Assembly (NCBI RefSeq): GCF_030450125.1
Contig: NZ_CP123923.1
Span: 372,001 to 436,000, forward strand
DNA from: Streptomyces sp. WP-1
GTDB lineage: Bacteria; Actinomycetota; Actinomycetes; Streptomycetales; Streptomycetaceae
DNA: 64,000 nucleotides
Direction of reading: 5' to 3'
Position 1 is the stretch's first letter, and each line of letters opens with the position of its first letter. The position numbers and the translations under genes were made by a program. Below the pieces are notes generated by a model that saw nothing but the letters and a program-made list of their open reading frames with translations, was not told the origin of the DNA and did no database searches. Positions 274 through 17,289 of the stretch are shown piece after piece.

Positions 274-1257
274 ATGATGCTGGTGAGCAGCCCGGATCCG
301 GTCATCGACGCCAATCTCGCCATCGCGCTGGACGCCCTGCTGACCGAGCACAGCGTCACGCGCGCCGCCGCGCGTCTGCACACCTCGCCCGCCGCCATGA
401 GCCGTACGCTCGCCCGGCTGCGCCGCGTCCTCCAGGACCCCCTGCTGGTCCGGGCCGGACAGGCCATGGTTCCCACCCCGCGCGCCCAGGCCCTGCGCGA
501 GGAGGCCGCCGCCGTGGTGCGCGGTCTCGGCGCGCTGCTCAGTCCCGGCGCGAGCGTCGACCCGGCCGGCCTGAGCTGCACCTTCACCCTTCAGGCCGCC
601 GACCTGGTGGGCGCGGCGCTGGCCCCGGGGCTGCTGCGGCTGTCGCGGCGGGAGGCGCCGGGGGTCTCGTTCCGGATCCGGGCCGAGGAGCTGGAGGCGG
701 GGCCCGCCCTGCGCGACGGCCGGATCGACCTGGAGGTCGGTGCCATCGGCCATGTGGACCCCGAGACCCGGGTCGAGGAGCTGGTCGGCCTCCGTATGGT
801 GGCGGCCGTGCGGTCCGGTCATCCGCTCGCCGAGGGGCCGCTGACCCCGGCCCGGTTCGCGGCCGCCCAGCATGTCGCGGTCAGCCGCCGGGGCCGGTTC
901 ACCGGACCGCTCGACGCCGCCCTGGCCGAGCGGGATCTACGGCGGCGGGTCAGCGTCGTCCTCCCCAGCCATCTGGCCGCGATGGCGCTCGCCGCCCGCA
1001 GCGACCTCGTCTGCCTCGTGCCCGCCGCGCTCCCCGGCGCCGCCCCCTCGCCCCTCACCCATGACGCCCACGCCTTCGGGCTGTGCCTCCTCGACATCCC
1101 CTTGGAGCTGCCGCGGCTGACCATCGGCATGGCCTGGCATCCCCGGCACACGGCCGACGGAGCCCACCGCTGGCTGCGGGACGCCGTACGCCGGGCCCTC
1201 AGGGCACCGGCAGCGCCTTCGGACGCGCCCGTGACGGAGGCGGGCGGGTCCGAGTAG
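274..1257 (+). CDS. LysR-family transcriptional regulator
   Basis: A 327-residue protein, the usual length for the family. Residues about 13-72 form the winged helix-turn-helix (NLAIALDALLTEHSVTRAAARLHTS region, with PAAMSRTLARLR as recognition helix). The rest is the periplasmic-binding-protein-like effector domain. The start ATG at 274 is followed at once by a second ATG at 277, and either could be used. The gene is divergent from the NmrA-like gene, with about 104 bp between them that should hold the operator. Regulation of that neighbour, and of itself, is the natural inference. It converges on the end of the isonitrile synthetase gene at 1312, so it is not obviously part of that cluster. 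The inducer is unknown. Confidence 0.9.
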   Translation: MMLVSSPDPVIDANLAIALDALLTEHSVTRAAARLHTSPAAMSRTLARLRRVLQDPLLVRAGQAMVPTPRAQALREEAAAVVRGLGALLSPGASVDPAGLSCTFTLQAADLVGAALAPGLLRLSRREAPGVSFRIRAEELEAGPALRDGRIDLEVGAIGHVDPETRVEELVGLRMVAAVRSGHPLAEGPLTPARFAAAQHVAVSRRGRFTGPLDAALAERDLRRRVSVVLPSHLAAMALAARSDLVCLVPAALPGAAPSPLTHDAHAFGLCLLDIPLELPRLTIGMAWHPRHTADGAHRWLRDAVRRALRAPAAPSDAPVTEAGGSE

Positions 1258-1311: not shown

Positions 1312-4300
1312 TCACCGGGAGGGGGCGGGCAGCGCGCCCGTCGTCACGCAGTGGTCCAAGGAGCGGAAGAACAGAGCGCGGTCGACGGGCGGGCAGGTGA
1401 TGCCGCTGCCGGCCAGGCCCGCGCGGACCCGGTCGGCGTGGACGTGCCCGAGGCGCAGGTCGGTCGCGGGGTCCTGGCCGGTCGCGGGGTCCTGGCCGGT
1501 CGCGTCTTCGTCGGTGGAGTCGAAGAAGGCGAGCGCCGTGGCCGCCGCGTCGGCCGAACGGGGAAGCCGCTGCCGCCAGTTCGCGAGTGGCAGGGCCCGT
1601 ACCGGATAGCCGTACTCCCGCAGCCAGTCGTACACGTCCGCGAGCCGGACGCGGGGCAGGGTGGCGTGGTTGAAGACGGTGGCCGTCCCGTCGTCCCGGC
1701 GCAGGCACAGATGGACGAGCGAGCGCGCGACGAAGTCCACCGGGGTCCAGACCTCGTCCTCGAAGAGTTCGGGCACGATCCCCGCGGGGATACCGGCCCG
1801 CAGCACGCCCCACAGGAAGTCCCGCTCGTTGACGTGTCCCGTGCGGGCGGGCCCGATGACGCGGCCCAGCCGGTGGACGGTGACGGGCAGACCGCGTTCC
1901 GCCGCCTGTTCCAGGAGGTGTTCGGAGGCCCACTTGGACTGCTGGTAGCCGTACCGCAGGCCCTCGTGCGGCGGCAGGAACTCCTCCGGCACCTCGGGCC
2001 TGCGGCTCGCCGGCGGGGCGACGGAGAGGGTGGAGACGTAGTGCAGGGGCGTGGTGCCGACGGCCGCGAGGCGCAGCAGGCGCCGGGTGGACTCGGTGTT
2101 GGCGGCGCGCAGGGTGGCGTAGTCGCGCAGGACGCTGACGGCCGCCGCGTTGTGGAAGATCGCGTCGCAACTCGCCGCGAGACCGGCCAGGGTTTCCGGG
2201 GGCAGGCCGAGGTCGGTACGGGCCAGGTCGGCGGGCAGGGCCGTCAGGCGGGCCGACGCCCGGTCACCCGGGGTGAGGCCGTGCCGGTTGAGGGCCGCGT
2301 GGACGCGGGCGGTGGCCTGCGGTACGTCGGTGGCCCGTACCGTGCAGACGATCTCGGCGTCCGTGTCGGCGAGTAGCCGTGCCAGCAGGTGTGCGCCGAC
2401 GAAGCCGGTGGCGCCGGTGAGCAGGATGCGTCGAGGGGGGTGGTGGAGGGTGCGCTTCGCGCCCGGCCGGATGTCCGGATCGAGGGCGGCGTCGGCGAGG
2501 AGGGCCGGGGCTGTGAGGGCGCGTACGGCGCGTACGGGAGGGGCGGGGCGCGGGCGTACGGGGGTGGGGGCGGCTTCCACTCCCGCATCGGCTTTCGCTC
2601 CCGCATCGGCTTTCGCCGCCGCTTCGGCTTCGGCTGCCGCTTCGGCATCGGCTTCGGCTCCGGCTCCGGCTCCGGCTCCGGCTTCGGCTCCGGCTTCGGC
2701 TCCGGCTTCGGCTTCGGCTTCGGCTTCGGTGAGGAACTGGGCGAGGCCCGCGACGGTGGGGTGCTGGAAGAGCCAGGCGACCTTCATGTCCCGGCCGAGT
2801 GCCACGCCGAGCCGGTTGGCCGCCTGGATGACCTGGAGGGACTGGGCGCCGAGGTCGAACACGTCGTCGTCCGCGGCGACGGCGTCGATGCCGAGGATCT
2901 GCCGCCAGATACCGGTGACGGTCCGCTCCAGGGGGCTGCCGTCGACGGACGCCCGGTGGGCGGGCGGTTCGGCGAGGGCGGCCCGGTCGATCTTCCCCGA
3001 GCTGGTGCGGGGCAGCCGGTCGACGAACTCAATGGCGGAGGGGACCATCGCCGCGGGCAGCCTCGTCCGAAGGTGTGCCCTGATCTCGGCGGCGGACGGT
3101 GCCGGGGGCTCGGCCACGGCCTGCGCGACCAGCCGCCGGGTGCCGTCCGGCAGGACCTGTCCGGCGACGGCCGCCTCCCGGACGGCGCAATGGGTGAGCA
3201 GGGCGTTCTCCACCTCGGCGGGCTGCACCCGATGCCCGCTGAGCTTGAACTCGGCGTCGGCCCGGCCGACATGGCGTAGTTGCCCGTCCTCCCCGATACG
3301 GACCAGGTCCCCGGTGCGGTAGGCACGCGACGCGCCCGTGAGGGCCGTGAGCGGGGCGAAGCGCGCTCCGTCCGGCACGTCTCCCCGGTAGCCGTCGGCG
3401 AGGGTCGGGCCCAGCAGGTACAGCTCACCGTCGACGACGGCCGCCCTGGTGCCGGGCAGGGGCAGGCCGATCGGCGCCTCACCGGGGGCGAGTTCGGGGG
3501 TGCTCAGGTCGGCGACGGTGGCGACCACGGTGGCCTCGGTGGGGCCGTAGGTGTTCAGCAGCGTGACCGAGGTGCCCACCGCCTCGCGCCAGCGCTCGAC
3601 CCGTTCGGGCAGGGCGGTCTCACCGCCGATGACGACGGTCCGCACGCCCTTCGGCAAGGTGGCGGCGCCGGTCGACACCGCGTGCGCGAGCTCGTGCCAG
3701 TAAGCGGTCGGCAGATCCAGCACGCTCACCCGCAGCCGGGCGCAGGTGTCGAGGAAGCCCGGCACCGACTCCGTCATGTCGTCGGTCCGCACCACCAGGG
3801 TGGCGCCGGCGCACAGGGTCAGGAAGATTTCTTCCACGCTGGCGTCGAAGTGCGGCGGCGCGAACTGGAGGACGCGGTCCTCCCCGCGCAGCCCGTAGCG
3901 GTGCGTGGCCGCGGCGACGAAGTGGGCGAGCGCGGCATGCCCGACCGCCACGCCCTTCGGTCGGCCGGTGGAGCCCGAGGTGTGCAGGACGTACGCGAGG
4001 TCCGTGGGCGCGGGAGCCGAGGGGGTGCCGGTGGTGCCGCGTTCGCGGGCCGTCGTCTCCGGTGGGGTCCCTTCCAGCGTGACTACGGGGCGATCCGTGA
4101 AGTCGGCCGCGCGGTCAGCCGTGGTGAGGACGAGCGCCGGGGCGGTGTCGGCGAGCAGCCGGGCCGTACGGTGGGCGGGTGCTCCGGGGTCGAGGGGGCA
4201 GTAGGCGGCGCCGGACAGGAGCACTCCGAGCAGGGCGGTGACGGCGTCCGCTCCCCGGGGCAGGGCTACGGCCACCAGGTCGCCCCTTCCGACGCCGCGA

Positions 4301-5793
4301 CCGGTGAGTTCCCGGGCGATGTTACGCGCGGCGCCGAAGAGTTGGGCGTAGGTCAGGGTCGCTCCGGCGTGCTCGACGGCGACGGCCGCTCCGCGTCGGG
4401 CGGCGTGCTCGGCGATGAGGCTCAGCACCGGGCGGACGGGGACGGGCAGGGGGCCGCCGTCGAGCACGGACACCGTACGGCGCGCCCGTGTTCCGCCGAG
4501 CGGCCGGTCCGGGTCGGCGAGCGCCTCCGCCAGCAGGGTGAGGAGTCCTTCCTGGAACGCGGCCGCCTCGGACTCGGTGTACAGCTCGGGGTTGGCGTCG
4601 ACGGCGATGCGCGCCCCGGTGCCGTCCGCGCGGTCGTAGACGTTGACGGCCAGGTCGTCGACGGGGCCGGCGGACACGTTGTGGGCGGTGCTCGGACACC
4701 CGGCGAACTTCAGGTCGTACGCGAACGGCATGACGTTCACGCCCGGCCCGGACAGCCGGCGCCGGCCGCCCACCAGCTTCAGGTCGCGCCGCAACTGCTC
4801 GTAGCGGTAACGCTGGTGCGGCAGCGCGGCGCGCAGTTCGCGCGAGACCCGGGGGGCGAGGACACGGAGACTGTCGTCGGGAGTGACGGGGACCCGCAGG
4901 GGCAGGATGTTGCGCACCGTGGTGGGCACCCGCAGCGCCACCGATCCGAGGCGGCCCGTCACGGGCAGGCTCAGGACGATCTCCGGGGCCCGGGTGAGCC
5001 GGTGCAGACGGGCGACGGTCACCGCGAGGAGAATGTCCGACCAGGTGACCGACAATTCGCGGGCTACGGCGCGCAGTCGGCCGGTCGTGGCCGGGTCGAG
5101 GTCGGCGATGTGCCGGTGGAAGGCGCGGGCGGGCAGAGCGGCGCGGCCCGCCGGACCTGAGACCGGCGGGTGGTCGGCATAGCGACCGGTCCAGTAGGCG
5201 CGGTCCTCGGTGTGCCGGGCGGATTCCCGGTAGGCGCGTTCCTCGGCGAGCACGGAATCCAGGGTGCCGAAGCCGTTCGGCGGTACGGGTGCACCGGCCA
5301 TGAGAGCGGTGTAGACCTCGGCGACGCGCCGGGCGACGAGGGAGAGGCCGAAGCCGTCGAGGGCGATGTGGTGGACGCGGTGGTACCAGAGGAACTCCTC
5401 CGGCGCGGTCCGCAGCAGGGCGTGGCCGAAGAGCGGGCCTCGGGTGAGGTCGACGGGACGGGCGATGTCCTGGCTCATCCAGGCCAACGCGCCGACATGC
5501 GGGTCGGGTTGAGAGGTGAGGTCCGCGAGGTGGAGGTGCCAGTCGCCGGCCGGGGTGTCGACCTGCCGGGGGCGGCCGGTGTCGTCGGTGTCGAAGGTGA
5601 CGTTCAGGGCCTCGGTCTCGGCGACGACATGGCGCAGCGCTCGCTCGAAGACGGCCGCGTCCAGCGGACCGGTGATACGCAGGTACTCGGCGGTGTTGTA
5701 CGCCGGGCTCTCCAGGTCGAGTTGCTGTCCGGCCCAGATGCCCTCCTGGGCGGCCAGCAGCGGACGCCGCTCAGACGTCCCGGACGTCGGCAT
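1312..5793 (-). CDS. scoA-like: Single-module NRPS with terminal reductase (C-A-T-R), ScoA/Nrp-type, isonitrile lipopeptide assembly
   Basis: A 1493-residue synthetase. Residues 1 to about 430 are a condensation domain with the HHxxxDG motif as HHIALDG (141-147). Residues about 450-950 are an adenylation domain (LHTSGSTGRPKG, NTYGPTEA, YRTGDL). About 960-1035 is a carrier domain with LGAQSLQ around the phosphopantetheine serine. After a low-complexity Ala/Glu linker comes a thioester reductase domain (LLTGATGFVGAHLL and the Tyr-x3-Lys pair in YQQSK). In the ScoA/Rv0101 family the enzyme acylates an amino acid with isonitrile acyl chains and releases it reductively. A core motif A4 reads FDASVEEIF, with Glu where phenylalanine-activating domains have Trp. 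That hints at a basic substrate such as lysine or ornithine (inference). Last gene of the operon; its start overlaps the ACP gene by 23 nt. Confidence 0.93.
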   Translation of the reverse strand: MPTSGTSERRPLLAAQEGIWAGQQLDLESPAYNTAEYLRITGPLDAAVFERALRHVVAETEALNVTFDTDDTGRPRQVDTPAGDWHLHLADLTSQPDPHVGALAWMSQDIARPVDLTRGPLFGHALLRTAPEEFLWYHRVHHIALDGFGLSLVARRVAEVYTALMAGAPVPPNGFGTLDSVLAEERAYRESARHTEDRAYWTGRYADHPPVSGPAGRAALPARAFHRHIADLDPATTGRLRAVARELSVTWSDILLAVTVARLHRLTRAPEIVLSLPVTGRLGSVALRVPTTVRNILPLRVPVTPDDSLRVLAPRVSRELRAALPHQRYRYEQLRRDLKLVGGRRRLSGPGVNVMPFAYDLKFAGCPSTAHNVSAGPVDDLAVNVYDRADGTGARIAVDANPELYTESEAAAFQEGLLTLLAEALADPDRPLGGTRARRTVSVLDGGPLPVPVRPVLSLIAEHAARRGAAVAVEHAGATLTYAQLFGAARNIARELTGRGVGRGDLVAVALPRGADAVTALLGVLLSGAAYCPLDPGAPAHRTARLLADTAPALVLTTADRAADFTDRPVVTLEGTPPETTARERGTTGTPSAPAPTDLAYVLHTSGSTGRPKGVAVGHAALAHFVAAATHRYGLRGEDRVLQFAPPHFDASVEEIFLTLCAGATLVVRTDDMTESVPGFLDTCARLRVSVLDLPTAYWHELAHAVSTGAATLPKGVRTVVIGGETALPERVERWREAVGTSVTLLNTYGPTEATVVATVADLSTPELAPGEAPIGLPLPGTRAAVVDGELYLLGPTLADGYRGDVPDGARFAPLTALTGASRAYRTGDLVRIGEDGQLRHVGRADAEFKLSGHRVQPAEVENALLTHCAVREAAVAGQVLPDGTRRLVAQAVAEPPAPSAAEIRAHLRTRLPAAMVPSAIEFVDRLPRTSSGKIDRAALAEPPAHRASVDGSPLERTVTGIWRQILGIDAVAADDDVFDLGAQSLQVIQAANRLGVALGRDMKVAWLFQHPTVAGLAQFLTEAEAEAEAGAEAGAEAGAGAGAGAEADAEAAAEAEAAAKADAGAKADAGVEAAPTPVRPRPAPPVRAVRALTAPALLADAALDPDIRPGAKRTLHHPPRRILLTGATGFVGAHLLARLLADTDAEIVCTVRATDVPQATARVHAALNRHGLTPGDRASARLTALPADLARTDLGLPPETLAGLAASCDAIFHNAAAVSVLRDYATLRAANTESTRRLLRLAAVGTTPLHYVSTLSVAPPASRRPEVPEEFLPPHEGLRYGYQQSKWASEHLLEQAAERGLPVTVHRLGRVIGPARTGHVNERDFLWGVLRAGIPAGIVPELFEDEVWTPVDFVARSLVHLCLRRDDGTATVFNHATLPRVRLADVYDWLREYGYPVRALPLANWRQRLPRSADAAATALAFFDSTDEDATGQDPATGQDPATDLRLGHVHADRVRAGLAGSGITCPPVDRALFFRSLDHCVTTGALPAPSR
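2583..2735 (-). repeat. Ala/Glu/Gly-coding microsatellite in the NRPS linker
   Basis: A run of hexamer-like units (ggcttc / ggctcc on the plus strand) encodes a (EA/GA/KA)n stretch of about 50 residues between the carrier and reductase domains. Such in-frame trinucleotide/hexanucleotide tracts change length by slippage, so linker length probably varies between strains. It is a flexible tether, not a catalytic part. Confidence 0.85.
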
Positions 5794-6193
5794 GACCGGC
5801 TCCTCGTATGCGTTCGGTGAGCAGCTGCCACCACTGGGCGAAGGATGTGCGCTCGGCGAGGTCGACGAAGCTCACCTCGGCGCCCGCCGCCTGCCAGCGC
5901 TCCAGCAGGGAGACAATGCGCAGCGAGTCGAGCCCGGCGTCCAACGGGCTTTCCGCCAGGTCGACTTCACCGGGCAACAGGAACAGGCACTCCGCGAGGT
6001 CCGCACGGAAACCGTCCAAGGTGAGCTGTCCGGGCACGGGTTCAAAGACGGATTCAGACACGGGTTCAGACACGGGTTCAGACACGGGTTCAGGCACGAC
6101 TCCAGGTACGGATCCAGGCAGGAGTTCAGGCACGAGTGCAGGCATGGACTCAGACATGGGTTGAGGCATGGGTTCAGCCAGAGGCTCAGACAT
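5771..6193 (-). CDS. scoB-like: Acyl carrier protein, ScoB-type, with repeat-rich N-terminal extension
   Basis: 140 residues. The C-terminal 80 form a carrier domain with the attachment serine in AGLDSLRIVSLLERW (Ser90). In the ScoA-E pathway the fatty acyl group is loaded onto this protein by ScoC, receives glycine on the beta carbon through ScoD, and the resulting amine is turned into an isonitrile by ScoE. Residues about 1-55 are a Pro/Glu/Ser/Val repeat (PVSEPVSEP) with no counterpart in the roughly 80-residue mycobacterial protein. The start at 6193 has only a weak ribosome site (gagagag), and internal Met codons at residues 9, 13 and 17 are alternatives. The stop lies inside the next gene, so the two are translationally coupled. 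Confidence 0.88.
   Translation of the reverse strand: MSEPLAEPMPQPMSESMPALVPELLPGSVPGVVPEPVSEPVSEPVSESVFEPVPGQLTLDGFRADLAECLFLLPGEVDLAESPLDAGLDSLRIVSLLERWQAAGAEVSFVDLAERTSFAQWWQLLTERIRGAGHADVRDV
6033..6180 (-). repeat. 12-bp tandem repeats in the ACP N-terminal extension
   Basis: Near-perfect copies of the unit cacgggttcaga (plus strand) stand in tandem around 6057-6095, with degenerate gttcaggca-type units on both sides. They encode the PVSE/PMSE repeats. The 12-bp unit keeps the frame when copy number changes. Confidence 0.85.
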
Positions 6194-6284
6194 GGGGGGG
6201 CTCTCTCTCGGTGGCTCGTCCGTCGGTGCGGCAGGGGCCCGCCGGTTGGTCCGCGCCGGACATGAACGGCGCAGCCGGGACTGC

Positions 6285-7868
6285 TCAGTTGACCTTGCGG
6301 GCGGAGTCACGCCAGTAGCGGTCGCGCAGCTCGCGGCGGAGGATCTTGCCGCTCGGGTTGCGCGGCACGTGGTCCGTGAACTCGTAGCTCGCGGGCAGTT
6401 TGAACGCCGCCAGCCTCGGGACGAGGAACGTGTGCAGATCCCGCCCGGTGGGCCGGGCACCGGCCGCGGGGACGACGAAGGCGTGGACCCGCTCGCCCCA
6501 CCGCTCGTCGGGGATCCCGATCACCACCGCCTCCCCCACCGCGGGGTGGCGTTCCAGCACGTTCTCGATCTCGGCGGGATAGACGTTCTCGCCCGCGACC
6601 AGGATGGCGTCCTTGATGCGGTCGTGGATGAAGAGGTAGCCGTCCGCATCGAGGTACCCGGCGTCACCGGTGTGGACCCAGCCGTCCACGAGCGTCTGCG
6701 CGGTCATGTCCGGCAGGCCCCAGTACTCGACCATCCGGGCGGGGGTGCGCAGGCAGACCTCGCCCACGGCGCCCGGCGGCAGTTCACGGCCCCGTCCGTC
6801 GATCACCCTGACCCCCACCCCCGGGTAGGGGCGCCCGGCGGCCCGCATGAGGGGGCCGCCGGGGACGTGGGCGGCCGGGGGCAGGCACACCGCGGTGTTG
6901 CCGGTCTCGGTCAGGCCGTAGATCTGGGCGAACTCGCAGTCCAGGACGGCGAGGCTCTGCTCCAGCAGCGCCTCGGAGATCGGGGAGCCGCCGTACACCG
7001 TTTTGCGCAGGGTGTTGAAGTCCCGGGCGCCGACGCCGGGTTCGGTGAGCATCATGCGCAGCATGGCCGGGACCACACAGGCGGTGGTGACGCCGAGGTC
7101 GCGGATGAGGTCCACGGCCTGCCGGGCGGCGAAGGAGCGCAGGGCGACGATCGTCGTTCCGGCGTTGAGGTTCTGGGTGGCCCACCACAGGCCGCCGACG
7201 TGGAAGCCGGGGATGCCGATCAGGGCGATGTCGCCCTCCCGCCAGTCGATCCAGTCCAGTTGCTCGCTCGCGAGTGCGTCACGGATCGCGAAGAAGCTGC
7301 GGTGGGCGAGCACGACCCCCTTCGGCAGTCCGGTGGTACCGCTGGTGTAGAGCTGTGCGACCGGTGTGTCGGGGTCGGCCTCGAACTCCGTTTCGCTGTC
7401 TGGACGTTGGGCGCGCCAGGTGACGATCGATTCGACCGGGACGACGGTCTCCGGGGGCCGGGTGGGCATGGCCGCCACGATCGGGGCGAACTCGCCCTCC
7501 AGGAAGAGCAGTCGGGTCCCGGAGTCCTGAAGGATGTGGCTCACCTCGGGCGCGGCGAGCCGCCAGTTGACCGGGACGAGCACGGTGCCGGTCTTGGCAC
7601 AGGCGAAGAGCGCCTCGTAGTAGTGCTCGGACTCCTTCCCCAGGTACGCGACCCGGTCGCCCTCCCGGAGGCCCGCGGCGCGCAGGGCGTGCGCCATGCG
7701 GTTGCTGTTGCGGTGCAGTTCCCCGTACGTCAGGGTGCGGCCCTCGCAGATCACCGCGGCGGCCTCGGGCCGGCGGGCGGCGTGGAAGCGCGTGGTGTGG
7801 ACGAGGGTGCTCAGTTCGGGGTGGTGGATCCTCGGGCCCCGGGGCGGCGGCGCCGTGGTCGACTCCAT
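6285..7868 (-). CDS. scoC-like: Fatty acyl-AMP/ACP ligase, ScoC/FadD10-type
   Basis: 527 residues, an ANL-superfamily adenylating enzyme. Motifs: AQLYTSGTTGLPKG (P-loop, about residue 170), IYGLTETGN (A5), HTGDAGYLDADGYLFIHDR (A7/A8) and the C-terminal lysine in NPSGKILRREL. Within the ScoA-E family this enzyme adenylates a medium-chain (often alpha,beta-unsaturated) fatty acid and transfers it to the ScoB carrier protein. The mycobacterial counterpart is FadD10. The start ATG at 7868 has a good ribosome site (gaaggga). It lies between the FcoT-like gene (25 nt upstream) and the ACP gene (about 90 nt downstream), the same order as in other isonitrile lipopeptide operons. Chain length cannot be told from sequence. 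Confidence 0.93.
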   Translation of the reverse strand: MESTTAPPPRGPRIHHPELSTLVHTTRFHAARRPEAAAVICEGRTLTYGELHRNSNRMAHALRAAGLREGDRVAYLGKESEHYYEALFACAKTGTVLVPVNWRLAAPEVSHILQDSGTRLLFLEGEFAPIVAAMPTRPPETVVPVESIVTWRAQRPDSETEFEADPDTPVAQLYTSGTTGLPKGVVLAHRSFFAIRDALASEQLDWIDWREGDIALIGIPGFHVGGLWWATQNLNAGTTIVALRSFAARQAVDLIRDLGVTTACVVPAMLRMMLTEPGVGARDFNTLRKTVYGGSPISEALLEQSLAVLDCEFAQIYGLTETGNTAVCLPPAAHVPGGPLMRAAGRPYPGVGVRVIDGRGRELPPGAVGEVCLRTPARMVEYWGLPDMTAQTLVDGWVHTGDAGYLDADGYLFIHDRIKDAILVAGENVYPAEIENVLERHPAVGEAVVIGIPDERWGERVHAFVVPAAGARPTGRDLHTFLVPRLAAFKLPASYEFTDHVPRNPSGKILRRELRDRYWRDSARKVN

Positions 7869-7893
7869 GAGCGGTCTCCCTTCGGTGAGTTGG

Positions 7894-8496
7894 TCAGGGG
7901 ACGTTGACGAACGCGAGGGTCACCTCGCCGTTGCACCGGCCGCCGTGGGCGTCCTGGTAGCGGAACACGGTCGGGGCGTGGAGGAAGGGACCGGCCGCGC
8001 CGGAGGTGCGCCGGGTCACGGAGCGGAACTCCATCTCCCCCGTGAAGCGGCGAGGGTCGACGGGCCGCCGGAAGTTCGCCGCGAACCGGGCGATGAGGAT
8101 GTCCGGGAGCTGGTGGCGCCAGAAGTCGTCCAGGGTCCAGTCCTCGAAGCCGGTCAGCAGCCGCTCCTTCACGGACTTGGCGACCAGGTAGTACATCATC
8201 TGGTTGTAGGCGATGTTGACCTCGACCGAGTTCAGATGCCCGGTGTCGTCGATGTAGCAGGACTCCTCGATCGCGAACGCGCAGCGGGCGGAGGCGAGTC
8301 CGTCGGACGCCGTGACCTCGGCTGACCTCAGGTACGCGCAGTGCTCCTTGTAGGGCGCCAGGACCCGGGCCAGCAGTTCCTCGTCGGTGGCGTACGACCG
8401 TCGCGGCGCGGCGGCCACCGGGTCGGCGGGGAGTGCCGAGTTGGCGGCGGGCACCGAGTTGGCAGTGGGCGCCGTGTTGGCGGCGGGCGCGCTCAC
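7894..8496 (-). CDS. scoD-like: FcoT/ScoD-type hot-dog enzyme, glycine adduct formation on acyl-ACP
   Basis: 200 residues with a GTG start whose stop-overlap (GTGA) couples it to the preceding oxidase gene. After an Ala/Pro/Asn-rich N-terminus of about 35 residues, the fold is that of FcoT (Rv0098), once called a long-chain fatty acyl-CoA thioesterase. The block [19 protein letters not shown] is characteristic of the family. Work on the ScoA-E pathway assigned this protein to the Michael addition of glycine to the alpha,beta-unsaturated acyl-ACP, giving a (3-carboxymethylamino)acyl-ACP. That role is inherited here by family and by context. The low-complexity N-terminus resembles the expansions seen in the ACP and NRPS of this same operon. 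Confidence 0.9.
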
Positions 8497-9389
8497 GCGG
8501 CGTCCATCCCGTCGTACAGTCCCCGCTCGTCGTGGACGGTGACCCGGTACGACACGGTGGGTTCCGGGGTGGTGGTGTGGCGGGCCCGGTGGACGAGGCT
8601 GCGGTTGTCCCAGACCAGCAGGTCGCCCTGCTCGAAGCCCTGCGGGTGGATGCCCTCGTGTTCGAAGGTGTCGTCGAGCTGGCCGGTGGCTTCGAAGAGA
8701 CGCTCCAGCAGCTTCGCGTCGAGCGGTTCGCCGTCCTGGCCCTCGATGCCGACGGTGAAGCCCTCACTGACGTAGAGGACCGTCTCTCCGGTCATCGGGT
8801 GGGTGAAGGTGGTGGGCCGGACGACCGGCGGGGTCCTGGTCTCGACCTCCTCGATGATCTCGGAGAGCGGGCGGTAGACGTCCTGCGGCCGGATCTTGAA
8901 GTACTTGCGCACGGAGTGCCGGCAGCGCGTTCCGGCGATCGCCGCTCTCAGCTCCCCGGGCAGCCGCTCGTACGCCCTGCCCATGTCGATGAAGTAGGTG
9001 CCCCGGTTCTTCTCCGGGATCACCTGCGGGTGGATCAGGGTGATGCCGAACGGGTCGGGCATGAACTGGTAGTCGGCGTGCCAGAACTTGCCCGTCTTCG
9101 GCACCCCTATCCGCCGGCCGTCCTCCGGCACGTTGGAGGAGACGAACACCTCCGGTACGTCCGGGTGCCGGTACATCGGTTCGTAGTACGTCTCGGGACG
9201 GCCCAGGCGCCTGCCGAGGGCGAGAAACTGGGCGGGAGTGAGGTCCTGTCCCTTCAGTACGGCGATCTTCTTCGTGTACACGGCCCTCTTCAGGGCCTGG
9301 ACGTCGGCCTCGGAGGCCGTGGTGTGGTCGAAGCCCTCGACGATGACGCCGAGCGCGGCACCGGGCTGGTCCTTGATCTGCATCTGCAT
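8493..9389 (-). CDS. scoE-like: Non-heme Fe(II)/2-oxoglutarate isonitrile-forming oxidase, ScoE-type
   Basis: 298 residues, TauD-like fold. The metal facial triad is His104, Asp106 (FWHADYQ) and His267 (LVHRAR), and the 2-oxoglutarate salt-bridge arginine is Arg282 (SYRVT). From memory of published ScoE work, the residues implicated there (Tyr96, Tyr97, Tyr101, His132, Asp134, Arg157, Lys193, His295, His299, Arg310) all fall at a constant offset of 28 here: Tyr68, Tyr69, Tyr73, His104, Asp106, Arg129, Lys165, His267, His271, Arg282. So the whole active site appears intact. The reaction is oxidative decarboxylation of an N-carboxymethyl group to an isonitrile. The ATG at 9389 has a ggaagga ribosome site. 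Confidence 0.95.
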
Positions 9390-9507
9390 GGCTGCCGGTC
9401 CTTCCGGATTTTGGGCGGTGTGGTGCGGGGTCAGGCGGTGGTGGTGCGGGGCATGGGTGTTCTCCTCATGGGGGTCGTCGGTCGGGGACGGGGGCGGGGC
9501 AGACCCG

Positions 9508-10944
9508 CTACGCGGCGGGGGTACGGCTCGTGCGCAGGGCCAGGGTGAGCGGGGCGCCGCAGCATAGACCGGCCGCGATGGCGAAGACGGCGACGCGTAT
9601 GCCGGTGAGCTGGTGTTCGTCCGGCGGGCCCTGGCCGGTGCCCGAGGACAGGGCGACCAGGAGAGCGAGCCCGATCGCGCCGCCCACCTGGAGGGTGGTG
9701 GACGCCATACCGGAGGCCACCCCCTGGTCCTCGGCGGCCACTCCGGAGGCGGCGGCGATCCACATGCCGGTCCAGGCGGCGCCCTGCCCGACCCCCAGGA
9801 GCACGATGCCGGGCAGCAGCAGGGAGTACGGCCCGTGCCCGGTGAGCGCGAGTCCGAGCACGACGGCCCCGCCCGCGCCCAGCGCCATGCCGCCGCCCAG
9901 CACCCGCCCCGACCCGGCTCGGGCCACGGCCAGTTCACCGGCCTTGGTACCCAGGGCGGTCACCACGGCGGGGACGAGGAACGCGAGGCCGGTCGTGAAC
10001 GCGCCGTAGCCGCGCACGTTCTGGAAGTAGAGGGTCATGAAGTACGGCAGTGAGCTGAACGTCGCGCTGTAGAGGGCGGTGAGCCCCATCGCCGCGCGCA
10101 GCCCCCGGTGGGTGAACAGCCGTACCGGCACCAGCGGATCGCGCGCCCGGGCCTCCACGACCGCGAAGGCGGCCAGCAGGGTGACCGCGAGTGCGGCGCC
10201 GAGCAGCACGGACGAGCTTGCCCAGCCCGACTCGGGGGCGCGCACCAGCGAGAACACCAGGAGCGTGATGCCCCCGGTGCCGAGCAGGGCGCCCGTCACG
10301 TCGTACCGGCGAGGACCGGTGCGCGGGCCGTCTCCCGGGAAGAGCCGCCACCCCGCCCATGCCAGTGCCCCCGCCAAGGGCACGTTGACGAAGAAGACGG
10401 ACCGCCAGCCGAACGCCTCCACGAGCACGCCGCCCAGCAGCGAGCCGAAGCAGAGGCCGCCGGCCCCGGCGGCGCCCCACACCGCCACCGCGCGGTTGCG
10501 GGCGGGGCCCTCCGCGTACAGGGTGTTGATCAGGGCGAGGGTGGCCGGGAACAGCAGTGAGCCGCCGATGCCCTGTGCCGCGCGGACGGTGATCAGGGCG
10601 CCCGCCGACTCGGCCAGGCCGCCCACCAGCGAGGACCCCGCGTACAGGAGGGCCGCGGCGACGAAGGTCCGGCGCCGTCCCAGCAGATCGGCCGTGCGGC
10701 CGCCCAGCAGGAGGAAGCCGCCCGTCGTCACGACATAGGCGCTCACCACCCACTGGAGGTCGTGCGGGGCGAAGCCGAGACCGGCGCCTATGTCGGGAAG
10801 GGCGACGTAGACGATGTTGTAGTCGAGCGCGATGACCAGCTGGGCCAGCGCCAGGACGAGCAGGGAGAGCCCCCGCACATCCTTGCCAATGCCCTTGCGT
10901 GGCAATGGAGTTGTCCGCCCGGTCGGTTCGCCGTTGTTTCCCAC
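9508..10944 (-). CDS. MFS exporter (DHA2/QacA-like), first gene of the isonitrile operon, possibly leaderless
   Basis: 478 residues from the GTG at 10944. It is a hydrophobic multi-span permease with DHA2 signatures: [16 protein letters not shown] in helix 1, [13 protein letters not shown] in the 2-3 loop and [18 protein letters not shown] (motif C region). Likely job: export of the isonitrile lipopeptide, or re-import of its metal complex; direction cannot be read from sequence. An ORF in this frame extends to an ATG at 11028, but the ECF-type promoter at 10947-10980 sits inside that extension. The GTG at 10944 is 7 nt after CGACTA, exactly where transcription should begin, so the message may start with its start codon. 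TTG and GTG codons further in are alternatives. Confidence 0.85.
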
Positions 10945-10946
10945 AC

Positions 10947-10980
10947 CGCAGTAGTCGCACGCCCCTGCCGTCGAGTTCCC
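10947..10980 (-). promoter_or_regulatory. ECF-sigma-type promoter of the isonitrile operon
   Basis: On the minus strand: GGGAACTCGACG, then 11 unrelated bases, then CGACTACTGCG. GGAAC is the classic ECF -35 core, and CGAC lies 17 bases further on as -10. The same two blocks with the same spacing recur at 16027-16060 before the copper ATPase operon, while the central 11 bases differ. That is the pattern of a shared promoter and not of a duplicated gene. The sigma gene lies just upstream. Confidence 0.8.
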
Positions 10981-11056
10981 GGCGGCACGGTCCCCTGCCG
11001 AGGACCGTGCCGCCACATACGCGGTCAAGGACGTCCGGCCCCGAGCGGGCCCGGGG

Positions 11057-11659
11057 TCAGCCGGCGAGGCTGCTCGCCGACTCGGCCTCCCGCAGCACCC
11101 GTTCGAGACTCGCGCGGGCTCGGGAGACCCGGGAGCGGACCGTGCCGACGGGACAGCCGACGAACCCGGCCGCCTCCTCGTACGACAGCCCGACCACCTG
11201 GGTCAGCAGGAACGCCTCCCGGCGCTCGTCGGGCAGGGTCTCCAGGAGGTCGAGCAGGGCGATGCCGTCGTCGAAGCCCGGCAGGCCGCGGGGCTGGGTG
11301 CCCTCCACCGCCGTCTGCCAGTCGACGGTGTCCGCGATCCGGGGGCGGACCGCGGCGCGGCGCAGACTGTCGGCGACCGCGCGGCGCGCGATGGAGAGCA
11401 GCCAGGTACGGGCCGAGGCCCGGCCCTCGTAGCGGTGCAGGCTGCCGAACGCCCGCGCGAAGGTGTCCTGGGTCAGATCGTGGGCGGTCTGGGGATCGCC
11501 GCTGAGGTAGGTGACGTACCGCAGGACGTCGGCGTGCAGGGCGCGGACGAAGTGGTCGGCGGCGTCGGGGTCTCCACCTCGGGCGGCCAGCGCCCAGGCG
11601 GTCGCCGACGCGTCCACGGAGGCACGATCCGCCCGTGGAACGGGCATGACAGAGATCAT
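11057..11659 (-). CDS. ECF RNA polymerase sigma factor, SigC-like
   Basis: 200 residues from the ATG at 11659, chosen for the upstream gaaggac; an ORF start at 11716 lacks a site. Region 2 spans about residues 25-95 (VLRYVTYLSG, DLTQDTFARAF, SARTWLLSIARRAVAD). Region 4 spans about 135-190 (LPDERREAFLLTQVVGLSYEEAAG and CPVGTVRSRVSRAR). The wording of these blocks is close to what I recall of mycobacterial SigC, which controls the nrp isonitrile operon and the copper ATPase gene ctpB. No anti-sigma gene with a zinc-binding or membrane-anchor pattern follows it; SigC also has no known cognate anti-sigma. It lies between the copper genes and the isonitrile operon and probably drives both promoters described here. 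Confidence 0.9.
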   Translation of the reverse strand: MISVMPVPRADRASVDASATAWALAARGGDPDAADHFVRALHADVLRYVTYLSGDPQTAHDLTQDTFARAFGSLHRYEGRASARTWLLSIARRAVADSLRRAAVRPRIADTVDWQTAVEGTQPRGLPGFDDGIALLDLLETLPDERREAFLLTQVVGLSYEEAAGFVGCPVGTVRSRVSRARASLERVLREAESASSLAG

Positions 11660-11877
11660 CGTGAGATGTCCTTCTCGGGTCTTCCGGGGCCGGACCCGCA
11701 CAGGGGCACGGCTCACCGGGGCATGGGGTGCGCCCGTACGCGGAGGTAGGGCGATGCCCGGAGCCCGTGGGGAACGGTCCGCTCACGGCGGCGCGTGGGG
11801 GTGCCGAGCAGAGGAGCGTGGGCACACCCGCGCGCGAGAACACCGCAGGACGAGGGGCTCCGGTGGATCCGGCTGTC

Positions 11878-12654
11878 TCAGCGGACAGCGGCACCCGCGG
11901 GCGGCCCCCGGAAGGTGAGGGAACAGCACAGGAGCAGACGCACCGGGGCGGGCGCGTCGACGGCGCGGCGCCGGTGTACGCCGGGGCGGCGGTACGGCGT
12001 GGGGAGCGCCCCGAGCAGCAGCCGCAGCGGGGCCGCCAGCCAGGCCGCCGTCGCCCGCAGGACGCGGAAGACGGCCCGCTCACCGTAGGCGAGCCACAGC
12101 CCGCACAGGACAGCGGCGAGGACGTGGGCGGCGAGCATGCCGACCGAGGCCGCGCCGCTCATGCCGGCCATGTCGTGCAGGGCGCCGGGAGCGGCCATCC
12201 CGTGGGCCGTGTGGGCCGCGTGACCGGCGGACCCCATGTCCATCCCGCCCATGGAGCCCATGTCCATCCTCATGGAACCCATGGAGCCCATGCCCATCGC
12301 GCCGTTGCCCATCGAGCCCATTGAGTGCATCGAGCCCATGTGCGGGGCGGCCGGGTCCGTCTGCGGACCGCCGTGGGACATGGCCGCGGGGCCGGACGCC
12401 GAGGACTGCGCCAGTGAGAAGGTCTCGTGAAGCACCATCTGGGCGGCGGTCACGACCGCGACGATCGACGTGCGGCCGCGCTCCCGTCCGGCCAGCAGCC
12501 AGCCCGCCGCGCCGGTCCCGAGCGCGCCCGCGGCCATGGCCCACCAGGGGACGGGGGTTCCCGACATGGTCGCGTGGCCGAGGGCGGCCAGCAGCACGCA
12601 GGCCGCGGCGAACACGCCGGCCCGCGCTGTACGGCACCACCCCGGGACAGTCAT
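11878..12654 (-). CDS. Membrane protein with Met/His-rich loop, probable copper-binding
   Basis: 258 residues. Two or three N-terminal membrane segments (about 14-32, 36-56, 62-80) are followed by an extracytoplasmic-looking loop (about 90-160). The loop is packed with Met, Gly, Ser and His (HMGSMHSMGSMG, MGGMDMGSAGHAAHTAHGM), the kind of MxxM/MxM ligand array used for Cu(I). A further membrane helix (about 165-185) follows, and an Arg-rich tail. It shares orientation with the PCuAC and copper ATPase genes upstream and the sigma factor downstream. By position it occupies the place of the CopD-like Rv0102 in mycobacteria, but I see no clear CopD motif. Its role in periplasmic copper capture or sensing is an inference. 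Confidence 0.75.
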   Translation of the reverse strand: MTVPGWCRTARAGVFAAACVLLAALGHATMSGTPVPWWAMAAGALGTGAAGWLLAGRERGRTSIVAVVTAAQMVLHETFSLAQSSASGPAAMSHGGPQTDPAAPHMGSMHSMGSMGNGAMGMGSMGSMRMDMGSMGGMDMGSAGHAAHTAHGMAAPGALHDMAGMSGAASVGMLAAHVLAAVLCGLWLAYGERAVFRVLRATAAWLAAPLRLLLGALPTPYRRPGVHRRRAVDAPAPVRLLLCCSLTFRGPPAGAAVR

Positions 12655-12871
12655 AGCCCGCTCATCCTCGCACCCGGAGTCCGACCGTCGGCAGGGGGGA
12701 GGCAGGAACCCTCGCCTTCCGGTTCGCGCCCCTCGCCGACCTCACCGACCTCGGCGACCCCGCCGACTCCACCAACTTCGCCGACTTCGCCGAGTTCGCC
12801 GAGTTCGCCGACCAGGAGGCGCGGTACAACTCACGCCAGCCACAAGGCAACTCGGGAAGCACAGAAAACGA

Positions 12872-13414
12872 CTACCGGAACGCCACCGTGCCCGGCCGCA
12901 CCACCACGGCCAGAACCGTGACCGGTCCGCCGCGCCGGAACTCCAGGGTGAACGGCACGCGATCCCCGGCGTACCACGCCCCCGAGGGAACCGGCACGGT
13001 GAGGTCGATCCCGGTCGGCGACATGCGGAGGTCCTCGCCCGCCGCGACGGAGACGGAGTCGATCGCGGACCGGTAGGCCGTGTTGCCCGCCGTCATACGG
13101 TGCTGGGAGAGCGTGACCGCGCCGGGAACGTCCCGCGCGGTGACCCGTACGAGCGTGTCGGCGGAGCCGCCCTCATTGGCGACGCGGAAGAACGCCGCCG
13201 TCTCCGGGACCCCGACGGACGGCAGCAGGACCCGCCCCTCGGTGACACGGATCCGCGCCGGGCTGCCCGCGCGGCCCGCGCCGACCCAGACGGCCAGCCC
13301 CACCAGCGCCGTACAACATGCCACGACGGGCACCAGGACGGCCAGGGTGCCGTCCCTCAGCCGCCGCCGGCCGAGACCCCTCAGGGAGGAGGCCCGGTCC
13401 ATGATCCGCTTCAT
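12872..13414 (-). CDS. PCuAC-like (DUF461) copper chaperone, membrane-anchored, degenerate metal site
   Basis: 180 residues with a start (ATG 13414) overlapping the copper ATPase stop by 4 nt. An N-terminal anchor helix (about 20-45, TLAVLVPVVACCTALVGLAVWVG) precedes one PCuAC cupredoxin-like domain: ETAAFFRVANEGGSADTLV, SQHRMTAG, VAAGEDLRMSPTGIDLTV. The family carries Cu(I) in the cell envelope to cytochrome oxidase or other acceptors, using two His/Met pairs. The first pair survives as HRM. The second, normally GxHxM after the PxG turn, reads GIDLTV here, so those ligands are missing. It may bind copper weakly or act only as a partner protein. The 217 bp behind it hold a 9-bp ttcgccgag-type repeat and no convincing gene. 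Confidence 0.82.
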   Translation of the reverse strand: MKRIMDRASSLRGLGRRRLRDGTLAVLVPVVACCTALVGLAVWVGAGRAGSPARIRVTEGRVLLPSVGVPETAAFFRVANEGGSADTLVRVTARDVPGAVTLSQHRMTAGNTAYRSAIDSVSVAAGEDLRMSPTGIDLTVPVPSGAWYAGDRVPFTLEFRRGGPVTVLAVVVRPGTVAFR

Positions 13415-15720
13415 CGCACGACCGCCTTCCCGCCGCGCGTCCCCCGCGTCCCCCGCGTCCCGCGCGCCCGGCTTCGGGCCCCTGACGGCTGCCAGCCCCG
13501 CAGCCGCAGGCTGTTCGCCACCACGAGCACGGAGCTCACCGACATCGCCGCGGCCGCGACCATGGGATCGAGCAGGCCGACCATGGCCAGCGGCACGGTG
13601 ACGACGTTGTAGCCGAACGCCCAGGCCAGGTTGGCCCGGATCGTGCCCAGGGTGCGCCGGGCCAGGCGCACCGCGTCCACCAGGGCCTCGATGTCCCCCC
13701 GGGCCAGCGTCAGGTCGGCCGCGCCGATGGCCACGTCGGCGCCGCCGCCCATGGCGATGCCCAGATCGGCACCGGCGAGCGCGGCGGCGTCGTTCACCCC
13801 GTCGCCCACCACCGCGACCCGAGCGCCCCGCTGCCTCAACTCCCGCACGAGGGCGGCCTTGCCCTCGGGAGTGCAACGGGCGTGCACCTCGTCGACACCG
13901 AGCGCGGCGGCGACGGCCGCGGCGGGCGCCTCGCGGTCGCCGGTGGCCAGCACCGGGCGGATGCCGAGCCGGCGCAGCCGGTCCACGGCCCGGTAGCTGC
14001 CGGGGCGCAGCACATCGCCGACGGCGATCAGCGCCTCGGCCCGGCCGTCCACCCGTACCAGGACCGGTGTGTGCGCGGCCTCCTCCGCCGCGGCCAGCGC
14101 TTCGGCCAACGCGCGCGGCAATCGACCGCCCGGCGCCCCCACCTCGACGACCAGGCCGTCCACCCGGCCGCTGACCCCGTGCCCGGGGAGGGCGGCGAAA
14201 TCCGTGACGTCCGGGAGAGACCCAGGTTCGCCCCTACGGCGCGCGTACGCGGTGACGGCCTGTCCGATCGGATGCTCGGAGCCCTGCTCCACGGCCCCGG
14301 CCAGCCGTACCAGCGCGTCCTGCCCGCGCCCGCCCGGCAGCGCGGTCACCCGGGCCACCGTCATACGGCCGGTGGTCAACGTGCCGGTCTTGTCGAGGAC
14401 GACCGTGTCCACCTGCCGAAGGGCTTCCAGCGTCTGCGGTCCCCGCACCAGCACGCCCAGTTGCGCCCCGCGCCCGGTGGCGGCCATCAGGGCGGTCGGT
14501 GTGGCCAGCCCCAGCGCGCACGGGCAGGCCACGACGAGGACGGCCACGCAGGCGGTGAGGGCCGCCTGCGGATCGGCTCCGGCTCCCAGCCAGAACCCGA
14601 GGACGGTCACCGCGAGGGCGAGGACGGCGGGTACGAACACTCCGGCGACCGTGTCGGCCAGCCGCTGCGCCCGCGCCTTGCCGGTCTGGGCCTCCGTGAC
14701 GAGACGGGTGATCCGCGCCAGCCGGATGTCCGCGCCGACCGCCGTGGCCGCCACGAACAGCAGTCCGCCGGCGTTGACGGCGCCGCCGACCAGAGCCGAG
14801 CCGGGGCCCACCTCCACGGGCTCGCTCTCGCCGGTGACCAGGGACAGATCCACGGCGGAGGTGCCCCGCACCACCCGTCCGTCGGTCGCGACCCGCTCCC
14901 CCGGGCGCACCACGAAGGTCTGCCCCACCCGCAGCCGCTCGATCGGGATCGACCGCTCGCCGGACTCGTCCCGTACCGACACCTTCTTGGCCGCCAGTTC
15001 GGCGAGCGACCGCAGCGCCGCCCCGGTCCCCCGCCGGGCCCGCCCCTCCAGGAACCGCCCGGTCAGCACGAACAGCGGGACGCTCACGGCCGCTTCCAGA
15101 TACAGGTGCGCCATGCCGTCCGACGCTGCGGGCAGGAGGCTGAACGACATCCGCGTCCCGGGCCGGCCCGCCCCGCCGAAGAACAGCGCGTACGCCGACC
15201 ACGCGAACGACGCGACGGTCCCCAGCGAGACCAGGGTGTCCATCGTGGCCGTCGAGTGGCGCAGGCCCCGCAGCGCCCTGACGTGGAACGGCCAGGCGCT
15301 CCATACGGCCACCGGGGCGGCCAGCACGAAGCACAGCCACTGCCAATCACGGAACTGCAGGGCCGGCACCATCGAGAGCACCAGCACCGGTACGGCCAGC
15401 AGCGCGGTGACCGTGATCCGTTCCCGCTCGCGCCGGTCCGCGGCCTCCTCCTCGTCCGGCGCCTCGGGGCCCTCGTCGTCCTCGCTCACCGGCAACGCGG
15501 CCTGGTACCCGGCCTGTTCGACCGCGGCGACGAGGCTGTCGGGCGCGGTGTCGGCCGGGTGGCTGACCCGGGCGAGTCCCGTGGCGAGGTTGACCGTGGC
15601 CGTGACGCCCGCCAGCTTGCCGAGTTTCCTCTCCACGCGCCGGACACAGGCCGCGCAGGTCATCCCGCCGACGGTGATGTCCGTGACGACGCGTTCCGCC
15701 GCCGGTTCGAGAGCGGTCAC
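13411..15720 (-). CDS. P1B-type copper-translocating ATPase (CopA/CtpA/CtpB-like)
   Basis: 769 residues. An N-terminal heavy-metal domain carries GMTCAACV (about 19-26). The transmembrane metal motif is CPCALGLATP, the phosphorylation site DKTGTLTTG, and the hinge VGDGVNDAAALAGADLG. The CPC triad with an MxCAAC domain marks Cu(I) as cargo. In most bacteria such pumps export copper, but relatives such as mycobacterial CtpB and CtaP-like pumps serve metallation of envelope enzymes. The GTG start overlaps the preceding small gene by 4 nt (GTGA) and the stop overlaps the PCuAC gene, so at least three genes form one translation unit. Transcription probably comes from the ECF-type promoter at 16027-16060. 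Confidence 0.94.
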   Translation of the reverse strand: MTALEPAAERVVTDITVGGMTCAACVRRVERKLGKLAGVTATVNLATGLARVSHPADTAPDSLVAAVEQAGYQAALPVSEDDEGPEAPDEEEAADRRERERITVTALLAVPVLVLSMVPALQFRDWQWLCFVLAAPVAVWSAWPFHVRALRGLRHSTATMDTLVSLGTVASFAWSAYALFFGGAGRPGTRMSFSLLPAASDGMAHLYLEAAVSVPLFVLTGRFLEGRARRGTGAALRSLAELAAKKVSVRDESGERSIPIERLRVGQTFVVRPGERVATDGRVVRGTSAVDLSLVTGESEPVEVGPGSALVGGAVNAGGLLFVAATAVGADIRLARITRLVTEAQTGKARAQRLADTVAGVFVPAVLALAVTVLGFWLGAGADPQAALTACVAVLVVACPCALGLATPTALMAATGRGAQLGVLVRGPQTLEALRQVDTVVLDKTGTLTTGRMTVARVTALPGGRGQDALVRLAGAVEQGSEHPIGQAVTAYARRRGEPGSLPDVTDFAALPGHGVSGRVDGLVVEVGAPGGRLPRALAEALAAAEEAAHTPVLVRVDGRAEALIAVGDVLRPGSYRAVDRLRRLGIRPVLATGDREAPAAAVAAALGVDEVHARCTPEGKAALVRELRQRGARVAVVGDGVNDAAALAGADLGIAMGGGADVAIGAADLTLARGDIEALVDAVRLARRTLGTIRANLAWAFGYNVVTVPLAMVGLLDPMVAAAAMSVSSVLVVANSLRLRGWQPSGARSRARGTRGTRGTRGGKAVVR

Positions 15721-15965
15721 TCACCGCTCCCATGGCTCATCCCGGGCATGTCGCCATTGCCACCGCCGCCCCCGCCGTCCCCGCCACTCCCGCCGCTCCC
15801 GGTGCCGTGCATGCCGGGCGCCACCGGCCCGACCGCCGCGCCGACGGCGTAGGACGCCGCGAACAGCAGCATCAGCAGGAGCAGGAATCCACAGAGCGCG
15901 GGAGGCGGCAGCAGCTTGCCACGGGTCGTACCGGGGGAGCGGGGTGACAACGGAATATCGGCCAT
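15717..15965 (-). CDS. Small single-span membrane protein with Met/His tail
   Basis: 82 residues from the ATG at 15965 (site aggaagg, 6 nt spacing). It has a cytoplasmic Pro/Arg start, one membrane helix (about 24-48) and a Gly-rich outer tail ending GDMPGMSHGSGE, plus PGMHGTG near the helix. The Met and His residues are placed like Cu(I) ligands. As first gene of the copper ATPase operon it may pass copper to, or sense it for, the pump; no enzyme function is suggested. No named family is recognised. It is the gene directly behind the second ECF-type promoter, with about 55 nt of leader. Confidence 0.75.
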   Translation of the reverse strand: MADIPLSPRSPGTTRGKLLPPPALCGFLLLLMLLFAASYAVGAAVGPVAPGMHGTGSGGSGGDGGGGGGNGDMPGMSHGSGE

Positions 15966-16026: not shown

Positions 16027-16060
16027 CGCAGTAGTCGGACCGGTGGAGCGTCGAGTTCCG
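16027..16060 (-). promoter_or_regulatory. ECF-sigma-type promoter of the copper ATPase operon
   Basis: Minus strand: CGGAACTCGACG, 11 other bases, CGACTACTGCG. The outer blocks match those at 10947-10980 (22 bases identical at the same spacing). GGAAC and CGAC are 17 bases apart. The predicted transcript starts about 55 nt before the small membrane protein gene. Confidence 0.8.
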
Positions 16061-17245: not shown

Positions 17246-17289
17246 GGGGTCACGCTCCAGCACCTCGTGGATCAGCTCGTGAAGTGCCG

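Follow-up and report, generated by a model that had tools for sequence, protein, structure and literature searches.

How is a gene cluster for an isonitrile lipopeptide tied to the copper-handling genes that lie beside it? We explored this question in a 64,000-nucleotide stretch of the 7.62 Mb chromosome of Streptomyces sp. WP-1 (the window, which starts at base 372001), in which the genes scoA to scoE and an exporter of the major facilitator superfamily (MFS) adjoin genes for an extracytoplasmic function (ECF) sigma factor, a Met/His-rich membrane protein (MetTM), a PCuAC-like protein, a CPC copper P-type ATPase (copA) and a small Met/His-tailed membrane protein (smallMH). A first-pass annotation of the window had described the complete ScoA-E set in order with an exporter and, directly beside it, these five further genes, and all were found again, on the minus strand and at the coordinates given (Table 1). 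We consider it likely that a SigC-type regulon for copper starvation is encoded here. Sequence evidence for the regulon architecture is strong; the copper-starvation function is assigned by homology to mycobacteria and by gene content. Together, the gene products probably synthesise a copper-scavenging molecule, export it, take it up again and handle the copper, and we infer the copper response, the nature of the product and the recognition of the promoter by the sigma factor. New here are the promoter shared by two operons, the fixed-spacing motif in sco loci, the mycobacterial parallel and the linkage of sigma to PvcA genes.

A promoter motif shared within the WP-1 genome

The sequence GGAACTCGACG-N11-CGACTACTGCG occurs twice in the window, ahead of MFS-scoEDCBA and ahead of smallMH-copA-PCuAC, with 0 occurrences in 100 shuffles of the window. 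When up to three mismatches were allowed, this long pattern had two sites in the whole genome, both of them the cluster promoters, against one site in a backward-read control. The annotation had assigned the isonitrile and copper operons to one regulon, a proposal that the identical predicted promoter before both operons supports. The GTG start codon of the MFS exporter at 10944 lies in frame 8 nt past CGACT, and this short gap suggests a leaderless message.

A third, looser copy stands just outside the window. A FecBCD-type importer is encoded at about 367657–370634 of the chromosome, with a binding protein 82% identical to that of relatives, and GGAAC-N17-CGACTAC lies ahead of it at 370685–370713, 1.3 kb outside the window, scoring 39.0 with a position weight matrix (PWM) that we trained on 42 importer promoters and used at a score threshold of at least 14. 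The annotation was without this importer, as the gene sits beyond the window edge. Relatives have a FecBCD-type importer (PF01497, PF01032, PF00005) placed after scoA; in WP-1, a LysR gene and two further genes (370867–373257) separate scoA from the importer. A LysR gene follows scoA in S. murinus (L148) as well.

Exact matches to GGAAC-N17-CGACTAC number nine in the whole genome. Three are the cluster promoters, five of the other six overlap predicted genes, and the last is intergenic without an adjacent same-strand gene. A loose pattern with one mismatch was unenriched over the genome (74 sites vs 150 in the backward-read control). With the remaining exact sites mostly inside genes and no enrichment, a wider regulon in this genome, sought through the loose motif, was rejected, as was membership of the neighbouring NicO-type gene, which has no motif ahead of it.

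Conservation of the motif and its gene neighbourhood

A scan of named genomes gave 112 loci encoding a ScoE relative, of which we compared the best 80; 55 were full sco-type loci (ScoA-E all found and ScoE at least 70% identical) and 25 were not. These loci overlap with the sample of 150 Streptomyces genomes described below (e.g. G033/L168, G016/L170 and G100/L175). Among the 55 full loci, GGAAC-N17-CGACTA occurred 106 times, in 45 loci, the same motif at spacings of 12–16 and 18–22 occurred once in total, and reversed or swapped motifs were absent (0). The other 25 loci held three copies, two in a truncated sco locus (L169) and one in L212.

The gene neighbourhood is conserved as well. All 51 full loci that extend 9.9 kb or more downstream of ScoE have FecB and FecD, and those reaching as far upstream (likewise 51) carry the ATPase (44), the PCuAC-like gene (44) and sigma (37); the small Met/His-tailed gene is conserved beside copA in relatives. 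Synteny of sigma, ATPase and scoA-E is wide, and an adjacency peculiar to this one strain, a possibility that the annotation had raised, was rejected by comparison across Streptomyces loci. Most of the 55 full loci also carry genes for an Asp/Asn beta-hydroxylase (50), a ketoacyl-ACP synthase III (KASIII; 49) and a second acyl carrier protein (ACP; 50), none of which turned up within the window or in the region to its left.

Sites scored by the PWM preceded the importer in 50 of 51 loci, a count that is partly circular because the matrix was trained on importer promoters. They also preceded AspH (22/48), smallMH (15/27), CopA (18/42) and MFS (2/51), and were absent before scoE (0/55), KASIII (0/47) and PCuAC (0/25); shuffled upstream regions gave 0 throughout. 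As a separate observation, a conserved GGAAC-N17-CGACTA lies at the stop codon of PCuAC, roughly 137 bp ahead of MetTM, in L149–L153, L155, L159 and L163 (with one mismatch at about 12847–12875 of the window); it points back into PCuAC/copA, in the manner of an antisense promoter.

In the 150-genome sample, 106 genomes had the sigma factor (131 loci) and 16 had ScoE (19 loci). The two lay within 15 kb of each other in nine genomes, where uniform placement predicts 0.1. Linkage followed the type of ScoE, since 9 of the 11 loci with a ScoE at least 74% identical had a sigma homologue within 15 kb and none of the eight with a ScoE 59–65% identical did. As for the two unlinked sco-type loci, the sigma gene of G033 is on a different contig, and G109 has a partial sigma match at the edge of the sequence examined (L064). 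The eight more distant loci are presumably of the SF2768 type.

A second isonitrile enzyme is linked to the same sigma. Isocyanide synthases of PF05141 were found in 34 of the 150 genomes (46 rows) and lay within 15 kb of sigma at 25 distinct loci in 24 genomes, against 0.2 expected (27 rows, two genes being split into two rows each); in all 25, PvcA was downstream of sigma on the same strand. Altogether, 34 of the 131 sigma loci had ScoE or PvcA within 15 kb and 97 had neither. These 97 loci would be expected if the isonitrile cluster and the copper module were mere neighbours without co-regulation, an explanation to which we attach next to no weight, given the identical promoters of the two operons, which have no further copy in the genome, and the fixed-spacing motif in dozens of loci.

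We examined 20 of the PvcA-type loci in full. They held PvcA (20), a P450 (19), FecB (19), the ATPase (18), a PCuAC-like gene (16) and an Asn synthase (11), with GGAAC-N17-CGACTA 28 times and 0 copies at ten other spacings. The best NCBIfam match of one PvcA protein was tyrosine isonitrile synthase (276 bits, under the cut-off of 600). Hazimycin is a possible product type for PvcA clusters, although its name was absent from the literature matches listed. The two cluster types require three or more changes on a quickly built sigma tree, in which many forks are weak. A Cys-rich protein of 74 aa (CGDCDCGCP) that matched no Pfam family, perhaps a copper-binding peptide, is encoded in 5 of the 20 loci (L082 13245–13469 and relatives) and also in L179, L180, L185 and L226, near sigma modules of both cluster types. 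NicO-type genes lie near some PvcA-type loci.

Outside Streptomyces, in a class-wide sample, 70 genomes out of 394, and 18 genera out of 137, had the sigma factor at E ≤ 1e-35. ScoE was found in five genomes of one genus (six loci), which we take as Mycobacterium in the wide sense because two of its loci that were checked have PPE genes; in three of these five genomes, sigma and ScoE lay no more than 10 kb apart. The six mycobacterial loci held GGAACT-N16-CGAC[TA] eight times, against two at ten other spacings, and, in loci where sigma lies beside these genes, the motif preceded the ATPase (L262, 3663) and PPE-nrp (L262, 7556; L263, 7880; in L263 the listed frame starts earlier than the motif and the PPE domain begins after it). 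Streptomyces and mycobacterial sigmas are 47–53% identical. The annotation had left open an independent or an ancestral version of the mycobacterial regulon; this identity, with the same −35/−10 elements and spacing before the ATPase and PPE-nrp, fits shared ancestry better than independent origin.

Other genera show the same elements in further arrangements. Allokutzneria (L215) has sigma, ScoE-A, FecBDC and the ATPase in one run, and in G495 (L320), from another family, a single run comprises sigma, the motif, an Asn synthase, a P450, PvcA and FecBDC. Across 20 sigma loci from outside Streptomyces, GGAAC-N17-CGAC[TA] occurred 18 times, while ten other spacings gave 0 to 4 each and 20 together; CopC or CopC-CopD stood behind the motif in two of these loci, and copper ATPase genes recur behind it in other genera. 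PepSY-TM/DUF5134 genes also recur near such sigmas, sometimes behind the motif (L092 10319–12396, L153 start, L263 19072–19611, L310 11709–13678, L312 9770–10175).

These results parallel published systems, cited here from excerpts of the papers. When sigC is induced in M. tuberculosis, ctpB and ppe1-nrp rise, with almost identical predicted SigC elements before both (PMC7924339); sigC is required in copper-starved medium, and the CtpB data were interpreted as copper import (PMC9147137). SF2768 is a reported Streptomyces chalkophore mediating copper uptake (PMC9600254), and fungal isocyanides (crm, xan) are induced by copper starvation (PMC9381783). The regulon described here shares with that of M. 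tuberculosis a SigC-like sigma, enzymes of the ScoE, ScoD, ScoC and ScoA types, a copper ATPase and, in mycobacterial relatives, the form of the promoter. In contrast, Streptomyces adds the MFS exporter, the FecBCD importer, the PCuAC-like protein and MetTM, and has no PPE gene; its sigma, ATPase and cluster adjoin, and its ATPase falls in a different clade. With scoA-E of S. coeruleorubidus and the SF2768 cluster of S. thioluteus it shares the enzyme set; the regulon link is newly added, and the eight distant ScoE loci of the 150-genome sample have no sigma within 15 kb. PvcA/Isn-type and fungal isocyanide clusters have the PF05141 enzyme in common but, unlike the fungal ones, the bacterial PvcA-P450 clusters are tied to the same sigma, motif and importer. 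Siderophore clusters likewise make and export a metallophore and import it by a FecBCD-type system, whereas here the context is copper with a SigC-type sigma, and the specificity of the importer is a prediction. Among the open-access literature matches listed, no title or abstract start pointed to a paper on a Streptomyces copper regulon with a SigC-like sigma, this promoter, a FecBCD importer or PvcA clusters.

A probable SigC-type copper-starvation regulon and its alternatives

In the mechanism that we propose, low envelope copper would stop MetTM from restraining sigma, which with RNA polymerase would then read GGAAC-N17-CGACTA at three operons. ScoA-E would build the isonitrile lipopeptide and the MFS pump would export it; having bound copper outside, the product would return through the FecBCD importer, and the ATPase, the small Met/His protein and the PCuAC-like protein would hand the copper to cuproenzymes of the envelope, with the aa3 oxidase the likeliest recipient. 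As an isonitrile module, ScoA-E is exchangeable: a PvcA-P450 cluster (in some cases with an Asn synthase) takes its place in the same regulon elsewhere in Streptomyces and in one or more genomes of a different family.

Several observations weigh against this scheme, in addition to the many sigma loci without an isonitrile gene. Sigma was absent from the available flank in 14 of the 51 full sco loci with enough of it, and the PWM found no site before sigma (0/36) or MetTM (0/36), nor ahead of either gene in the window. CopA and smallMH promoters were seen in only about half of the loci, the exact motif was missing in L065, L067 and L175, and the sole nearby motif site in Allokutzneria points away from the cluster. 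MetTM was undetected beside mycobacterial or Allokutzneria sigmas. Three gene identities are also qualified. Among solved structures, M. tuberculosis sigma-C (2o7g, 80 bits; next 66 bits) is closest to the sigma in sequence, but the score of the sigma for the NCBIfam SigC family (161.3 bits), although the best of 79 families, is under the curated cut-off (219), and we therefore call it only SigC-like. Similarly, the PCuAC-like protein has its PF04314 domain over the cut-off and keeps HRM but misses the second His-x-Met of the copper ligand motif, hence the qualified name. Finally, orthology of the ATPase with mycobacterial CtpB as a settled matter was rejected: in an unrooted tree, the Streptomyces sigma-linked ATPases form their own group and the mycobacterial linked ones group with that of Allokutzneria.

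The missing motif before sigma and MetTM and the loci without sigma would also agree with a different ECF sigma factor reading the motif, the SigC-like one being just nearby. We regard this as quite improbable, since the WP-1 genome has a single gene for a sigma of this type at E ≤ 1e-30, sigma is accompanied by this motif at this spacing in mycobacteria and other families, and SigC drives ctpB and ppe1-nrp in M. tuberculosis from the promoter elements cited above.

The signal might instead be another metal or stress (zinc, nickel or nitric oxide), with the product serving as a metallophore for zinc or for metals in general and the copper genes protecting against copper that it mobilises. CPC P-type ATPases are often copper exporters, and a NicO-type nickel transporter gene adjoins the locus, with others near some PvcA-type loci; moreover, one study cited in the excerpt of PMC9600254 gave the nrp product of M. 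tuberculosis a zinc role. This explanation seems unlikely to us, as NicO is without the motif, limitation of copper, not of zinc, is what the mycobacterial homologue responds to (same excerpt), and CopC, CopC-CopD and copper ATPase genes lie behind the same motif in other genera.

Within the favoured reading of a copper-starvation regulon, MetTM is hypothesised to be the copper sensor that restrains sigma until copper is lost. A MetTM relative lay just upstream of sigma on the same strand for 30 of 33, 20 of 20 and 35 of 37 sigma matches in three partly overlapping sets (99 of 116 when pooled under another rule), and MetTM is in fact present in L076, one of the loci counted as misses; weak, partial matches came from L311, L327 and L328, all of family f17. 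In the AlphaFold model (mean pLDDT 63, pTM 0.37, good for helix count only), there are four long helices and the Met/His loop is disordered, and charges under the positive-inside rule would place the loop outside and the tail inside. Residues invariant in 26 sequences include the helix residues H27, H76, M173 and H177 and the tail residues R249, P251 and P252. MetTM matched no Pfam or NCBIfam family, so no known anti-sigma domain such as zf-HC2, and no PDB sequence at E ≤ 1. A zf-HC2-like membrane protein adjoins sigma behind the motif in 7 of the 20 non-Streptomyces loci, over the Pfam cut-off in six of the seven, and is an anti-sigma candidate for the SigC-like sigma family. In these loci (L313, L314, L316–L319, L322), the start codon follows CGACT by 8 nt (once 9).

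A broader proposal, which we put forward tentatively and with more doubt than confidence, is that a SigC-type cassette predates the split between Streptomyces and mycobacteria, takes either ScoA-E or PvcA-P450 (with or without an Asn synthase) and has its own FecBCD chalkophore importer, and that the Streptomyces sigma is held by MetTM, which would be a new kind of regulator sensing envelope copper directly through its Met/His-rich outer loop and conserved RGPP cytoplasmic tail. If true, PvcA clusters would represent copper scavengers not yet described, and this promoter would serve to find them. Sigma together with GGAAC-N17-CGACTA would provide a sequence-level rule for copper-starvation regulons across Actinobacteria, name a candidate importer for isonitrile chalkophores and predict a copper role for a second, unrelated type of isonitrile cluster. 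It would also offer candidate sensors for a sigma family (SigC, ECF36) for which a review, seen in excerpt, has just a proposed conformational mechanism (PMC8999054), and a harmless Streptomyces model for a system that the papers cited study mainly in M. tuberculosis.

Locus layout and neighbouring features

The features of the locus are collected in Table 1. The smallMH protein matched no Pfam or NCBIfam family.

Table 1 Features of the sco and copper locus, in window positions
Feature	Positions	Strand	Basis
LysR gene, beyond scoA	274–1257	+	
scoA, single-module nonribosomal peptide synthetase (C-A-PCP-thioester reductase)	1312–5793	−	Pfam (C, A, PCP, reductase domains); NCBIfam thioester reductase domain
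scoB, ACP-like, start codon uncertain	about 5771–6193	−	GLDSL site, synteny; Pfam PP-binding without match at E ≤ 0.01
scoC, acyl-ACP ligase, AMP-binding	6285–7868	−	Pfam
scoD, FcoT-like (PF10862), (2E)-enoyl-ACP glycyltransferase ScoD	7894–8496	−	NCBIfam ScoD 306.8 bits, cut-off 250
scoE, Fe(II)/2-oxoglutarate isonitrile-forming enzyme (PF02668)	8493–9389	−	568 bits vs solved ScoE 6dch; HxD at residue 104
MFS exporter (PF07690), GTG start	9508–10944	−	Pfam; sequence
Predicted promoter P1 of MFS-scoEDCBA, GGAAC-N17-CGACTA	10952–10979 (long form 10947–10979)	−	sequence, PWM
SigC-like ECF sigma factor	11057–11659	−	Pfam regions 2 and 4; PDB 2o7g/2o8x
MetTM, Met/His-rich four-helix membrane protein, RGPP tail	11878–12654	−	17 Met and 7 His within 81 residues; function inferred
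PCuAC-like copper chaperone domain protein	12872–13414	−	PF04314 58.8 bits, cut-off 29.4
CPC copper P-type ATPase with HMA domain (copA)	13411–15720	−	CPC at 399, CxxC at 22, DKTGT at 443
Small Met/His-tailed membrane protein (smallMH)	15717–15965	−	sequence; conserved beside copA
Predicted promoter P2 of smallMH-copA-PCuAC, GGAAC-N17-CGACTA	16032–16059 (long form 16027–16059)	−	sequence, PWM
NicO-type nickel transporter	16154–17263	−	adjoins smallMH; first in transcription order

Elsewhere in the window, a 2774-aa hybrid protein with AMP-ligase, carrier, KS, AT, DH, KR and thioesterase domains (38648–46972, plus strand) is a separate polyketide-type synthase. A SpoIIE phosphatase with ANTAR, PAS and GAF domains (58028–60472, minus strand) adjoins a large HAMP-repeat hybrid histidine kinase (60529–63999, minus strand).

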